Below are positions 14,097 through 23,120 of a DNA stretch of 36,726 nt, piece by piece. The DNA lies in assembly GCA_023260985.1 (NCBI GenBank), contig JALRKY010000001.1, positions 1-36,726 on the forward strand, written 5' to 3'. Numbering within the stretch: position 1 is the stretch's first letter; the number at the start of each line of letters is the position of its first letter. The DNA is from Altererythrobacter sp. Its GTDB lineage: Bacteria; Pseudomonadota; Alphaproteobacteria; Sphingomonadales; Sphingomonadaceae. The notes below the pieces were generated by a model, which saw only the letters and a list, made by a program, of their open reading frames with translations, searched no databases and was not told where the DNA came from. The position numbers were made by a program, and so were the translations under genes.

Positions 14097-15036
14097 TTCG
14101 GATTCTCCTCGACAACAACCGGTCGCGCTCATCGCAGGGCCAACCGCCAGCGGCAAGAGCGATCTCGCGGTTCGGCTGGCATTGACGCTGGAAGAGCAAG
14201 GAAAGCGGGCGGTTGTAATCAATGCCGACAGCGCACAGGTCTATGCCGATCTGCGTGTGCTCAGTGCGCGGCCCGATGATGAAGAGATGCGCGGGATCGA
14301 GCACCGCCTGTTCGGCGCATGGGATGGAGCGCAGCCCTGCTCGGCGGCGGATTGGGCTGATGCGGCCAAATGCGAGATCGCAGCGCTGCATGCCGATGAT
14401 GCCTTGCCCATTCTGGTCGGTGGGACCGGGCTGTACATGCGGACGCTGTTGGAAGGGATAGCCCCGATTCCGCCGATAGACCCGGCAATGCGGGACGCGG
14501 TGCGTGCGCTCCCGACTAGTGAGGCCTATGCGGCATTGCAGGTAGAGGATCCCCAACGCGCCGCCTTGCTCAACTCGGCCGACAGCCAGCGGATTGCACG
14601 CGCGCTGGAAGTAGTCCGCTCGACCGGCAAGTCGCTGGAGCATTGGCAGGCCGAGAAGGCGGGAGGGATCGGTGAAGAGATTACGCTTCACCCGCTGGTC
14701 CTGCTGCCCGATCGCGAATGGCTCTATGCCCGCTGCGACCTTCGCTTCGCACGCATGCTCGATATGGGCGCGATAGCGGAGGTCGAAGCCCTGCTTGCGC
14801 GCAAGCTCTCCGCGGAACTGCCTGTGATGCGCGCGATCGGCGTACAAGAGATTTCGGCCTACCTGCGCGGCGAGGTCTCTCGCGATGAAATGATAGCCAG
14901 CGGGCAGCAAGCAACGCGCAACTATGCCAAGCGGCAATATACGTGGTTTCGGCGCCAGCCGCCGAAAGATTGGCCAAGATGCGAGTCTCAAAATATCTCT
15001 ATTGGAGATCATTTTGCATCATTATTACGTGGTTAA
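14089..15036 (+). CDS. miaA: tRNA dimethylallyltransferase
   Basis: MiaA adds a dimethylallyl group from DMAPP to A37 of tRNAs that read codons starting with U. The 315-residue product has the P-loop GPTASGKS (residues 17-24), then [19 protein letters not shown], then [16 protein letters not shown]. Its C-terminal half contains [12 protein letters not shown] and [16 protein letters not shown]. No other start fits, since the P-loop follows closely. The ATG at 14089 lies inside the serB start region, so the first eight bases are shared. No good ribosome site precedes it. A terminator follows about 42 bases after the stop. Confidence 0.95.
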
Positions 15037-15077
15037 CGGTTGACACGTTAGATTTGAACGCATAGCGGGTCATTCGC

Positions 15078-15116
15078 TGGCTCGGTGCGTGACCCTGCAC
15101 CGGGCCGCGTTTTATT
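15078..15116 (+). terminator. Strong terminator or attenuator between miaA and ilvB
   Basis: GGCTCGGTGC (15079-15088) pairs with GCACCGGGCC (15097-15106) through ten pairs with one G-T, around an eight-base loop. TTTTATT begins three bases later, at 15110. It could simply end miaA transcription. It could also act on an ilv transcript started at the upstream TTGACA. A competing pair, GGGTCA (15067-15072) with TGACCC (15090-15095), would break this stem. Confidence 0.7.
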
Positions 15117-15143
15117 GTGAAGCGCGCGAAATGCGCATAAATG
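15115..15143 (+). promoter_or_regulatory. Possible ilvB promoter downstream of the terminator
   Basis: TTGTGA (15115-15120), a 17-base spacer and TAAATG (15138-15143) give a moderate promoter 35 bases before the ilvB start. An alternative -35 TTGACA at 15040-15045 is perfect but has only a poor -10 (TAGCGG, 15063-15068), and its transcript would meet the hairpin at once. Confidence 0.35.
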
Positions 15144-20796: not shown

Positions 20797-21224
20797 TGCG
20801 TTGCTGCCTTCGATGCCGCGACCACTCGTTCCGTATCTACCAGAAGGATCGTGCTGGTCGCCTTGGCCAATACAGTCCCGTCCGGGGCCTTGAGGTGCCC
20901 CTCATAGAAATTGGTGCGCTTGCCCGCGCGCTCGACCCAACCCTCTGCGATCACCAGCCCAGGCCGCGCCGGAGCGAAAAAGCTAACCTTGAGTTCGAGT
21001 GACATCGGCACGAAGCCTTTGCCGTGCCGCGCGATCACCGCATGCGCCATTGCCGCATCGATCCACCCAGTCACGAAGCCGCCCTGCACGACGCCACCCG
21101 AATGGCACATCTCCGGTCTCGCTTCGTATTCAAGCGTCGCGCGCCCTTCCGGGTCGAGGTTGACGATACGTACCAGCCCCATGATCTGGTACAGTGAAGG
21201 CTCTGCGGCGTGAGTGTCTGTCAT
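20793..21224 (-). CDS. PaaI-type hotdog thioesterase
   Basis: This 143-residue protein has the hotdog fold. The active-site region is MCHSGGVVQGGFVTGWIDAAMAHAVI (near residues 39-64), followed by SLELKVSFFAPARPGLVIAEGWVERAGKRTNFYEG. This pattern is that of PaaI-family acyl-CoA thioesterases. It overlaps the epoxide hydrolase gene by four bases, so the pair may work on one degradation pathway of a lipid-like or aromatic compound. It diverges from leuA. The ribosome site before the ATG is weak. Confidence 0.85.
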   Translation of the reverse strand: MTDTHAAEPSLYQIMGLVRIVNLDPEGRATLEYEARPEMCHSGGVVQGGFVTGWIDAAMAHAVIARHGKGFVPMSLELKVSFFAPARPGLVIAEGWVERAGKRTNFYEGHLKAPDGTVLAKATSTILLVDTERVVAASKAATQ

Positions 21225-21299
21225 GCTTCGGTGATAGTCGGCTCGCTTTTTCTCTCCAAGCGCCTTGCGCTCGGCGCAATTTTCGGCAATTGAGCCGGC

Positions 21300-21353
21300 A
21301 TGACACGTAACGGATCGCTGCCGCTGCTACGACTTACACGCCCTTGGGCGTGA
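21300..21353 (+). CDS. Leucine-rich leader peptide upstream of leuA
   Basis: A 17-codon ORF reads MTRNGSLPLLRLTRPWA and then TGA. Four of the six codons from 7 to 12 are leucine (CTG, CTG, CTA, CTT), including the rare CTA. It ends 87 bases before leuA. Its last codons form the first arm of a perfect 10-bp inverted repeat. The arrangement matches ribosome-mediated attenuation, where stalling at leucine codons changes RNA folding. The ribosome site is poor (TGAG), so translation is inferred. Confidence 0.6.
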   Translation: MTRNGSLPLLRLTRPWA

Positions 21354-21392
21354 CCAGTCGCGTGCCTTGATGGCGCGCGGGGCGCCCAAGGG
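21341..21392 (+). promoter_or_regulatory. Candidate leuA attenuator stems
   Basis: CCCTTGGGCG (21341-21350) is perfectly complementary to CGCCCAAGGG (21383-21392). Inside it lies a second stem, GCGTGCC (21360-21366) with GGCGCGC (21372-21378). The first arm can also fold on itself (CGCCC-TT-GGGCG, 21339-21350). The first arm overlaps the end and stop of the leader peptide, so ribosome position would decide which stems form. No T run follows, so control may be of translation or Rho access rather than intrinsic termination. Confidence 0.5.
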
Positions 21393-21440
21393 AGCATCGC
21401 CGCACCGCCTCAATCCAGTTTCGTTACGAGTTCGATACCA

Positions 21441-23120
21441 ATGACCATGCTGTCCGATCCAAGCCGCAAGTACCGGCCCTTCCCTCAGGTCAACCTGCCC
21501 GACCGGCAGTGGCCAAGCCGCACCATCACTTCGCCGCCGCGCTGGCTTTCGACCGATTTGCGTGATGGCAACCAGTCGATCATCGACCCGATGGATGCGG
21601 TGAAGAAGAACCGCTTCTTCGACGAACTCGTGCGCATCGGCGTCAAGGAGATCGAAGTCGGGTTCCCGAGCGCTGGCGCCACAGAGTTCGACTTCATTTC
21701 CGGCCTCGTCCGATCAGGCAAGATCCCGGACGATGTGACGGTGCAAGTGCTGACGCAAAGCCGTGAAGACTTGATCCGCATCAGCTTCGAAAGCCTCGAA
21801 GGCGCCCGGTCCGCCATCGTCCACCTCTACAATGCCGTCAGCCCCGCATGGCGCGATATCGTGTTCCGCATGTCCAAGGACGAAGTGCGCGAAATCGCAA
21901 TCGCGGGCGCGAAAGTGATGCGCGACGAAGCCGCCAAGCGGCCTGAAACCGACTGGCATTTCCAATACTCGCCCGAAACCTTCTCGACTGCCGAGCTCGA
22001 TTTCAGCATCGCCGTGTGCGAGGCCGTGATGGAAGTTCTCCGGCCAACGCCGGAGCATCCCATCATCCTGAACCTGCCCGCCACGATCGAAGCGGCGACT
22101 CCCAATATCTACGCTGACCAGATCGAATATTTCTGCCGCAAACTGCCCAATCGCGACAGCGCGGTGATCAGCCTGCACACCCATAACGATCGCGGCACTG
22201 GCGTCGCGGCGGCGGAACTGGGGCTGATGGCGGGCGCCGATCGCGTCGAAGGCTGCCTTTTCGGCAATGGTGAGCGCACCGGCAATTGCTGTCTCGTGAC
22301 CGTCGCGCTCAACTTGTACACGCAGGGCATCGACCCCGGCCTCGATTTCTCCGACATCGACCGGATCATCGAAACGGTCGAATATTGCAACGAACTGCCA
22401 GTTCACCAGCGCCACCCCTATGGCGGAGAACTGGTCTTCACCGCTTTTTCGGGTTCGCACCAGGATGCAATCAAAAAGGGCTTCGAAGCGCACGCCAAGC
22501 AGAATGACGAACTTTGGCGCGTGCCCTATTTGCCGATCGACCCGGCCGACCTTGGCCGCAATTACGAGGCGGTGATCCGGGTCAATTCACAGTCCGGAAA
22601 GGGTGGTTTTGCCTGGGTGCTGGAACAGGATCAGGGACTGAAGCTGCCGAAGAAGATGCAGACGGACTTCTCGAAGCACGTCCAGCACCTCGCGGATGAG
22701 CTGGGCCGCGAACTCAATGCCACTGACATCTGGAACGCCTTCCGCAGGGCCTACTACGTCAAGATCGACCCGCGCCACTTCCGCCTTGTCGACTATGAAG
22801 AAATCCGCGCAGCAGACGGTACGCGTATCTTCTCCGGCAAGATCGCAGTCGATGGGCAGGAACAGACCGTCAGCGGGCGCGGAAACGGGCTGATCTCCAG
22901 CGTGATGAGCACGATCCGCAACACGTTTGGTGTCGAGCTGGACGTGACCGACTACACTGAGCATGCGCTTGGCACCGGCACCGATGCGCGCGCCGCCGCC
23001 TATCTCGAGTGCCGCACGCCCGATGGACGAACCATTTGGGGCTGCGGGATCGACGAGGACATCGCGACTGCCAGCGTTCGGGCGGTGCTGAGCGCAGCAA
23101 ACGGCGCAGTGACTGGCTAG
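21441..23120 (+). CDS. leuA: 2-isopropylmalate synthase
   Basis: LeuA condenses acetyl-CoA with 2-oxoisovalerate, the committed step of leucine synthesis. The 559-residue product is of the long LeuA form seen in actinobacteria and many proteobacteria (LeuA type 2). It has [16 protein letters not shown] (residues 37-52; metal- and substrate-binding R41/D42), [39 protein letters not shown], and a C-terminal LeuA regulatory domain from about residue 420 that should bind leucine. A second in-frame ATG lies at 21447. Its leader carries a leucine-rich peptide. Confidence 0.96.

Follow-up and report, generated by a model that had tools for sequence, protein, structure and literature searches.

What is the short, leucine-rich open reading frame (ORF) that precedes leuA in an Altererythrobacter genome, and does it belong to an RNA switch that senses leucine? 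The window analysed here is the whole stretch of 36,726 nucleotides at the start of contig JALRKY010000001.1 (assembly GCA_023260985.1; Sphingomonadaceae). An earlier note, made from its letters, had read positions 21300-21440 as a leucine attenuator. The features on which the answer depends are listed below; all lie on the forward (+) strand, and the evidence for each is given in brackets.

21265-21299, + strand: promoter-like conserved block, whose TTGCGC (21265-21270) begins 35 nt before the leader ATG
21300-21353, + strand: leader ORF encoding MTRNGSLPLLRLTRPWA, with stop codon TGA at 21351-21353 (sequence; kept in relatives' loci)
21306-21314, + strand: 5' strand of P4, CGTAACGGA, leader codons 3-5 (window fold)
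21327-21335, + strand: control codon block CTA CGA CTT (fixed codons in 140 loci)
21337-21352, + strand: P0, a self-fold of arm A (21337-21342 with 21347-21352 around CUUG), alternative to P1
21341-21350, + strand: arm A of P1, overlapping the end of the leader ORF (exact repeat, arm matching, compensatory changes)
21359-21379, + strand: P2, the inner stem, 21359-21366 with 21372-21379 (window fold; complementarity)
21372-21409, + strand: P3, a weak alternative, 21372-21375 with 21406-21409 and 21377-21380 with 21400-21403 (predicted, ribosome at leader stop)
21383-21392, + strand: arm D of P1, partner of A (compensatory changes, arm matching)
21420-21428, + strand: 3' strand of P4, TTCGTTACG, whose last base is also the first of GAG 21428-21430, the weak Shine-Dalgarno-like match of leuA (window fold; enrichment in related loci)
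21441-23120, + strand: leuA, 2-isopropylmalate synthase of the 559-aa type (LeuA search; TIGR00973)

The leader ORF and its stems are a real and conserved feature. The ORF is as the earlier note described it, running for 17 codons from ATG 21300 and encoding MTRNGSLPLLRLTRPWA, with four Leu codons within six (CTG 21318, CTG 21324, CTA 21327 and CTT 21333); leuA begins 87 nt past its end. CTA, which had been called rare, accounts for 9 of the 267 Leu codons in nine genes of the window and CTT for 33, whilst CGA makes up 10 of the 193 Arg codons in the same genes. Of 5000 mononucleotide shuffles of the intergenic stretch, 25 produced an ATG-initiated ORF of at least 10 codons with four Leu codons in six. 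The same criterion was satisfied by 3 of 1462 overlapping 216-nt tiles of the window on both strands, a count that takes in tiles containing the leader itself. The folding energy of the whole region is unexceptional for its composition (z -1.42, 17/200 shuffles equally good), and it is therefore conservation, not folding energy, that places the leader beyond chance.

Forty one distinct loci upstream of leuA were gathered from the window's genus, 25 via LeuA alone and 16 more via DNA similarity to the leader region. All 41 encode an in-frame peptide with LRLxRPW near its end, so the Leu codons before leuA, whose conservation the earlier note had proposed as a check, are kept throughout. The residue that follows this motif is A in 40 loci and G in one, and the leaders of L011, L016 and L023 extend one codon past the A. 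A DNA search of relatives found a match in 49 of 100 genomes, every one of them in the window's genus. Three genomes lacking a DNA match (G008, G020 and G023) nevertheless carry the leader at their leuA loci (L022, L016 and L023, respectively). A set of 140 distinct loci with the 559-aa LeuA type encodes 105 different peptides with a fixed C-terminal end. The Arg codon of the control block is CGA at all 140, and the Leu codon after it is CTT at 132 and CTA at 8, never CTG or CTC, which are the common ones. All 140 loci were required to match the LRLxRPW pattern, with the third bases of CGA and CTT left free. A pattern scan that fixes CGCCC and TGGGCG supplied 58 of them, and the other 82 agree (CGA 82, CTT 75, CTA 7). 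Two of the 140 (L139 and L145) come from records labelled Mesorhizobium and Actinobacteria and are possibly misbinned. Judged by this conservation, selection maintains a short leucine-rich ORF here, in which the uncommon codons CGA and CTT/CTA are fixed close to the C-terminal end.

The perfect 10-bp inverted repeat reported earlier is exact (CCCTTGGGCG at 21341-21350, CGCCCAAGGG at 21383-21392) and forms P1, and the stem that it encloses, placed by the earlier note at 21360-21378, is present as P2. Covariation of the stems had also been suggested as a check, and the outer stem does carry compensatory changes. In alignment A2 (37 of 53 representatives), P1 has 48 two-sided changed cells compared with 14.9 in shuffles, and a covariation score of 0.401 compared with 0.243. 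For both measures 0/500 shuffles were as high, and slid versions of the stem scored at most 0.240. The pairs with a two-sided change (5 vs 3.3 shuffled, 36/500 as high) and the further pair types (11 vs 11.3 shuffled, 447/500 as high) are the P1 measures least affected by relatedness, and neither is clearly above shuffles. Arms A and D reach a score of 9 or more out of 10 in 181 of 203 loci, as opposed to 0.9% of shuffles; the percentage paired for P1 is inflated in this arm-fit set and in A2 because arm D was picked by its complementarity to A.

Three matching arm contexts were found, namely TTGGGCG/CGCYCAA, TTAGGCG/CGCCTAA and CTGGGCG/CGCTCAG, the second of them in 13 loci whose leader ends RLxRP. 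The arm pairs themselves differ by locus and include CCCTTGGGCG/CGCCCAAGGG, CCCTTAGGCG/CGCCTAAGGG, CCCCTGGGCG/CGCTCAGGGG (with one G-U) and CCCTTAAACA/TGTTTAAGGG. In 147 of 185 loci, no other A variant fitted D better than the one that the locus itself carries. This held for 129/135 loci with CCCTTGGGCG and 13/13 with CCCTTAGGCG, for 2/7 with CCCCTGAGCG and 2/3 with CCCCTGAACG, and for just 1/27 with CCCCTGGGCG, whose D fits CCCCTGAGCG better (one G-U pair). The type and place of the stop codon vary together with the matching arm changes. In the 13 RLxRP loci, which belong to other genera, the stop sits at the usual place of the Trp codon, and in loci from other orders it usually stands directly after a Pro codon.

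By reading of the predicted folds, P1 with P2 is the structure formed past the Leu codons in 36 of the 41 genus loci, other folds being favoured in L008, L020, L040, L041 and L049. The complementarity of P2 exceeds that of shuffled and swapped pairs. P0 and P1 share arm A, and in folding models the choice among competing stems would depend on ribosome position. Outer pair one of P0 holds in 94.1% of 153 sequences (shuffled mean 81.7%, maximum 88.2%); outer pair two holds in 73.9% (shuffled mean 70.1%), which merely equals the shuffled maximum of 73.9%. Separately, several Acetobacteraceae were seen by eye to have a second complement right after arm D (CTCAGGG GAAG CCCTGAG), a possible alternative hairpin.

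How far does the arrangement reach? A covariance model trained on the 41 genus sequences (R1) matched 271 of 396 genomes of the window's order, in 46 of 84 genera, and 269 of these matches lie inside the window's family. Eight family genomes without an R1 match were examined, of which one has LeuA and seven have no TIGR00973 LeuA match. As these seven (G152, G161, G170, G172, G193, G198 and G232) have neither the leader nor a LeuA match, loss of leucine synthesis in their lineages is suggested. A second model (R2), trained on 37 sequences, matched 58 of 288 class genomes in 40 families. The best 30 of the 58, from 23 families, all lie before leuA, and 20 of these 30 genomes are outside the source genomes of R2 (compared by genome, the named records of R2 aside). 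The 23 families spanned by these checked matches go beyond the earlier note, whose guess had concerned one family. Seven genomes gave a second model match, four of them at the same place on the opposite strand and three weak (E 0.0009 to 0.007).

Scanning named genomes with a sequence pattern returned at least 117 stretches. Among the 117 listed, 67 have the 559-aa LeuA type within 700 nt downstream, 26 have the other type of about 520 aa downstream, and 24 have neither; five of the last group end within 250 nt, and the remaining 19 look like chance. Labels among the 26 include Rhodospirillales, Acetobacteraceae, Roseomonas, Phenylobacterium and Proteobacteria. Of 61 further loci, 51 hold the leader core: 28 of 37 outside the genus fetched by LeuA alone, and 23 of the 24 remaining, which had been picked for holding the leader. 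The position of leuA starts in this set was assigned by rule and is incorrect for at least L133 and L142. A looser peptide pattern matched 28 of 35 loci, but at the wrong place in at least L264, L279 and L290. A strict DNA pattern was rejected as a class-wide signal. It matched 12 of 385 genomes, two of them in the window's genus, and LeuA was in the locus for just those two, whilst a reversed-pattern control matched more genomes (23); it therefore carries no class-wide signal. The recurrence of the arrangement upstream of leuA across many alphaproteobacteria makes a leucine-sensing switch the probable reading.

The gene that follows the leader is of two kinds. The leuA of the window matches the NCBIfam LeuA model TIGR00973 at 6.6e-53, under the curated cut-off. 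The 559-aa and 520-aa types are about 28% identical and have the leader in common, and a member of the window's own family (L108) carries it before the 520-aa type. The presence of the same leader before such dissimilar types suggests that, in Sphingomonadaceae, one leuA took the place of another whilst the leader stayed. At one locus (L024; G011:C1:371133-372804) leuA matches as two overlapping pieces in different frames, reflecting either a frameshift or a sequencing error.

What, then, would the leader act upon? The earlier note had named blocked translation as one possible output, and this is the output favoured by the complementarity between the leader and the initiation region of leuA (P4). 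In the window, P4 comprises nine pairs (21306-21314 with 21420-21428) plus a separate 2-bp contact (21303-21304 with 21430-21431). Its 5' strand consists of codons 3-5 instead of the Leu codons, and its 3' strand has one base in common with the GAG. The complementarity is ordinary for the composition (z -0.9), and the fit of P4 in the window is fair, not decisive. Across related loci, leader codons 5-8 and leuA positions -20..-13 share 0.636 paired positions per locus in helices of at least 8, compared with 0.090 in GC-matched swaps; the same test gave no excess at leuA -4..+9. Amongst 33 dissimilar loci, 1 of 2000 permutations was as good as the observed complementarity. The figure was 3/2000 for 37 dissimilar loci, all but one outside the window's family, for which the leuA starts were likewise assigned by rule, with the errors named above. 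Measured against composition shuffles, the P4 excess is 1.17 +/- 0.12 in the 140 loci, 0.68 +/- 0.27 in the set of 33, of which just 4 exceed a z of 2, and 0.71 +/- 0.21 in the 37. The adjacent upstream zone is also in excess (0.47 +/- 0.19 at -44..-25; 0/500 permutations as good at -48..-28), and part of the P4 signal may thus be composition or a looser pairing zone. In some lineages the run of Leu codons can itself pair, for example CTTCTTCTGC/GCAGAAGAAG at -20..-11.

Folding was also modelled with a ribosome masking part of the leader. Mean leader pairing of -20..-6 is 0.404, compared with 0.243 in 420 chimeras with GC-matched tails. Compared with the stop state, a mask over the first core Leu codon reduces pairing of -20..-6 in 82 of the 140 loci and increases it in 2, an effect that is partly built in because the mask removes the leader strand. 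Pairing of -12..+3 hardly differs between stall and stop (0.434 vs 0.495, 140 loci). In the model of the window, pairing of 21425-21436 falls from 0.71 at the stop to 0.36 when the ribosome stalls at CTA 21327, and that of 21441-21449 rises (0.51 vs 0.30); a stall at CTT 21333 leaves P4 paired (0.72 vs 0.71 at the stop). The Shine-Dalgarno match of leuA is just 3 bases in 133 of 140 loci, no better than random 22-mers from the window, so the region that P4 would hide has no clear ribosome site. Our trust in a translational output is lower for this reason, and because pairing of the start codon changes little in the models.

The transcript itself may begin close to the leader. Relative to the leader ATG, the 140 loci have T at -36 in 84%, T at -35 in 82% and C at -1 in 80%, with a conserved TTG at about -36 to -34. 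A consensus scan of the window leader region found no sigma-70 site. No Shine-Dalgarno sequence stands out before the leader ATG, the match being at most 3 bases in 102 of 140 loci (1393/2000 random window 22-mers match comparably). Given the lack of a Shine-Dalgarno sequence and the conserved TTG 35-36 nt upstream, a transcript start at or next to the leader ATG, and hence a leaderless start, is plausible. A leader ORF on a leaderless transcript has been described for trpL of Sinorhizobium meliloti (PMC10117765).

Taken together, these data make the leucine attenuation layout proposed in the earlier note well supported from sequence, by the leaders at 41/41 genus loci and the compensatory changes in the outer stem. 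The reading that we favour, at a little better than even confidence, is a ribosome-mediated leucine attenuator of leuA whose output would most likely be leuA translation. The mRNA may begin at or near the ATG of the leader. The end of the ORF (arm A) would pair with arm D and close a long hairpin with P2, a step to which the compensatory changes attest, and the front and middle of the ORF would pair with the leuA initiation region as P4, which has statistical support, modest in the window. Under leucine shortage, slow passage of the ribosome over the first Leu codons of the block would keep the P4 strand covered; P1/P2 would meanwhile hold the rest, and the start region of leuA would be open. 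When leucine is plentiful, the ribosome would proceed and leave, P4 would re-form and leuA would start less often.

The same stems could serve transcription attenuation by leucine, with termination via a weak intrinsic terminator or Rho, which we consider rather unlikely. Here, a ribosome at the leader stop under plentiful leucine would cover A and the 5' arm of P2, leaving the 3' arm of P2 to form P3 (in Acetobacteraceae, arm D would pair with the CCCTGAG just after it), and under leucine shortage P1/P2 would prevent termination. A P3-like pairing is indeed predicted in the stop state of the window and was seen by eye in many of the 41 loci, complements of D directly after D were seen by eye in several of 21 loci, and pyrimidine-rich stretches follow, again by eye, in many. 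T runs reach a length of at least 4 in 30 of 140 loci, compared with 5 of 140 shuffled. However, the longest run is 3 or less in the other 110, and no terminator-like site was found in 21180-21500, in keeping with the earlier note, which had remarked on the lack of a T run; an intrinsic terminator was rejected on these grounds. The complementarity of P3 is modest (mean -14.8 vs -13.3 kcal/mol shuffled, a gain of merely 1.5 kcal/mol) and weaker against shuffles than P1 and P2, so P3 was likewise rejected as the main switch. Moreover, termination leaves the pairing between leader and leuA start unexplained.

It is improbable that the element is a protein-binding or structural RNA, in which a regulator would recognise P1/P2 and the invariant CGACTT, the ORF being incidental or partly used. 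Such recognition would suit codons (CGA and CTT/CTA) that are fixed beyond amino acid need, and a precedent has been argued for the actinobacterial LEU element (PMC1262725). It sits poorly with an ORF that keeps its frame, start, Leu run and stop whilst its N-terminal codons vary (105 peptides in 140 loci), and whose stop shifts type and place with matching arm changes. A conserved promoter and leader with no regulatory role, and hence no leucine switch, is very improbable given the compensatory changes and the position of all 30 checked class-wide matches before leuA.

Returning to translational attenuation, a broader proposal can be made tentatively, at somewhat less than even confidence. 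This would be a class-wide, uncatalogued switch of alphaproteobacterial leuA, in which the leucine-coding ORF doubles as an antisense strand hiding the leuA start, and leader translation directly gates leuA translation. Its stop codon would lie in or beside the switch helix and move with the arm changes, and the leader, standing before two distant leuA types, may have outlived gene replacement.

Does the element correspond to a known system? A search of Rfam with the whole window at the curated score returned one tRNA only, and a search with 21225-21500 at E up to 10 returned no match; nor did 13 related loci match any family, Leu leaders included. A literature search by titles and abstract openings found no alphaproteobacterial leuA leader, and our claim of novelty reaches as far as that search. 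To this extent the earlier suggestion that the variant may be undescribed holds. The treatment of proteobacterial attenuators by Vitreschak et al. 2004 could include such leaders. The enterobacterial leuL attenuators combine a short ORF, clustered Leu codons including rare ones, and competing stems set by where the ribosome stops. The present leader resembles them in all of these respects, the ribosome's choice here being modelled, but unlike leuL it shows no terminator hairpin with a T run and has no Rfam match.

The closest published element found is the actinobacterial LEU element, in which a Leu-run ORF precedes leuA, as here, and a stem joins the Leu codons to the Shine-Dalgarno sequence of leuA (PMC1262725). 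That stem is close to P4, although P4 of the window uses codons 3-5 instead. The LEU element is said to form either a pseudoknot or, upon one shared base stem, an alternative hairpin, and the authors held leader translation to be unlikely and proposed a binding protein (PMC1262725). In contrast to that element, which belongs to a different phylum, the long hairpin P1/P2 here overlaps the leader stop. Within the alphaproteobacteria, work on Caulobacter ilvIH describes an attenuated branched-chain amino acid operon with a leader CDS (PMC4117421), a likeness in class and in leader but for a different gene, ilvIH as opposed to leuA; the term leuA has no occurrence in the text of that paper. The trpL/rnTrpL of S. 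meliloti is described as a transcription attenuator with a functional sRNA (PMC10117765). It shares with the leuA leader an alphaproteobacterial leader ORF and a leaderless transcript, as may apply here, and differs in its amino acid and gene (tryptophan and trpE), in acting on transcription and in the functional sRNA.

A second upstream region of the window, 14979-15120 before ilvB, contains a short ORF of 28 residues with an Ile run from 14979. Further on come TTGACAC at 15040 and a GC-rich inverted repeat (CTCGGTGC at 15081, GCACCGGGCC at 15097), with TTTTATT after it at 15110. Of 12 relatives examined, 3 (L351, L352 and L360) share RIII-like ORF ends, and the element may therefore be an ilv attenuator or the terminator of the upstream gene.

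If the reading is right, a leader that Rfam 15 lacks would govern how leuA responds to leucine across a large bacterial class. The element can be found readily, with 30/30 checked best matches standing before leuA, and would help in annotating small ORFs of a kind usually overlooked. Sharp mutational predictions follow from its stop codon, its control codons and its pairing strands. The interest of the leader lies in its breadth, in its absence from Rfam and in the testable dual use of its ORF; moreover, its occurrence before LeuA types about 28% identical would make a case for regulation that survives the replacement of the gene it regulates.
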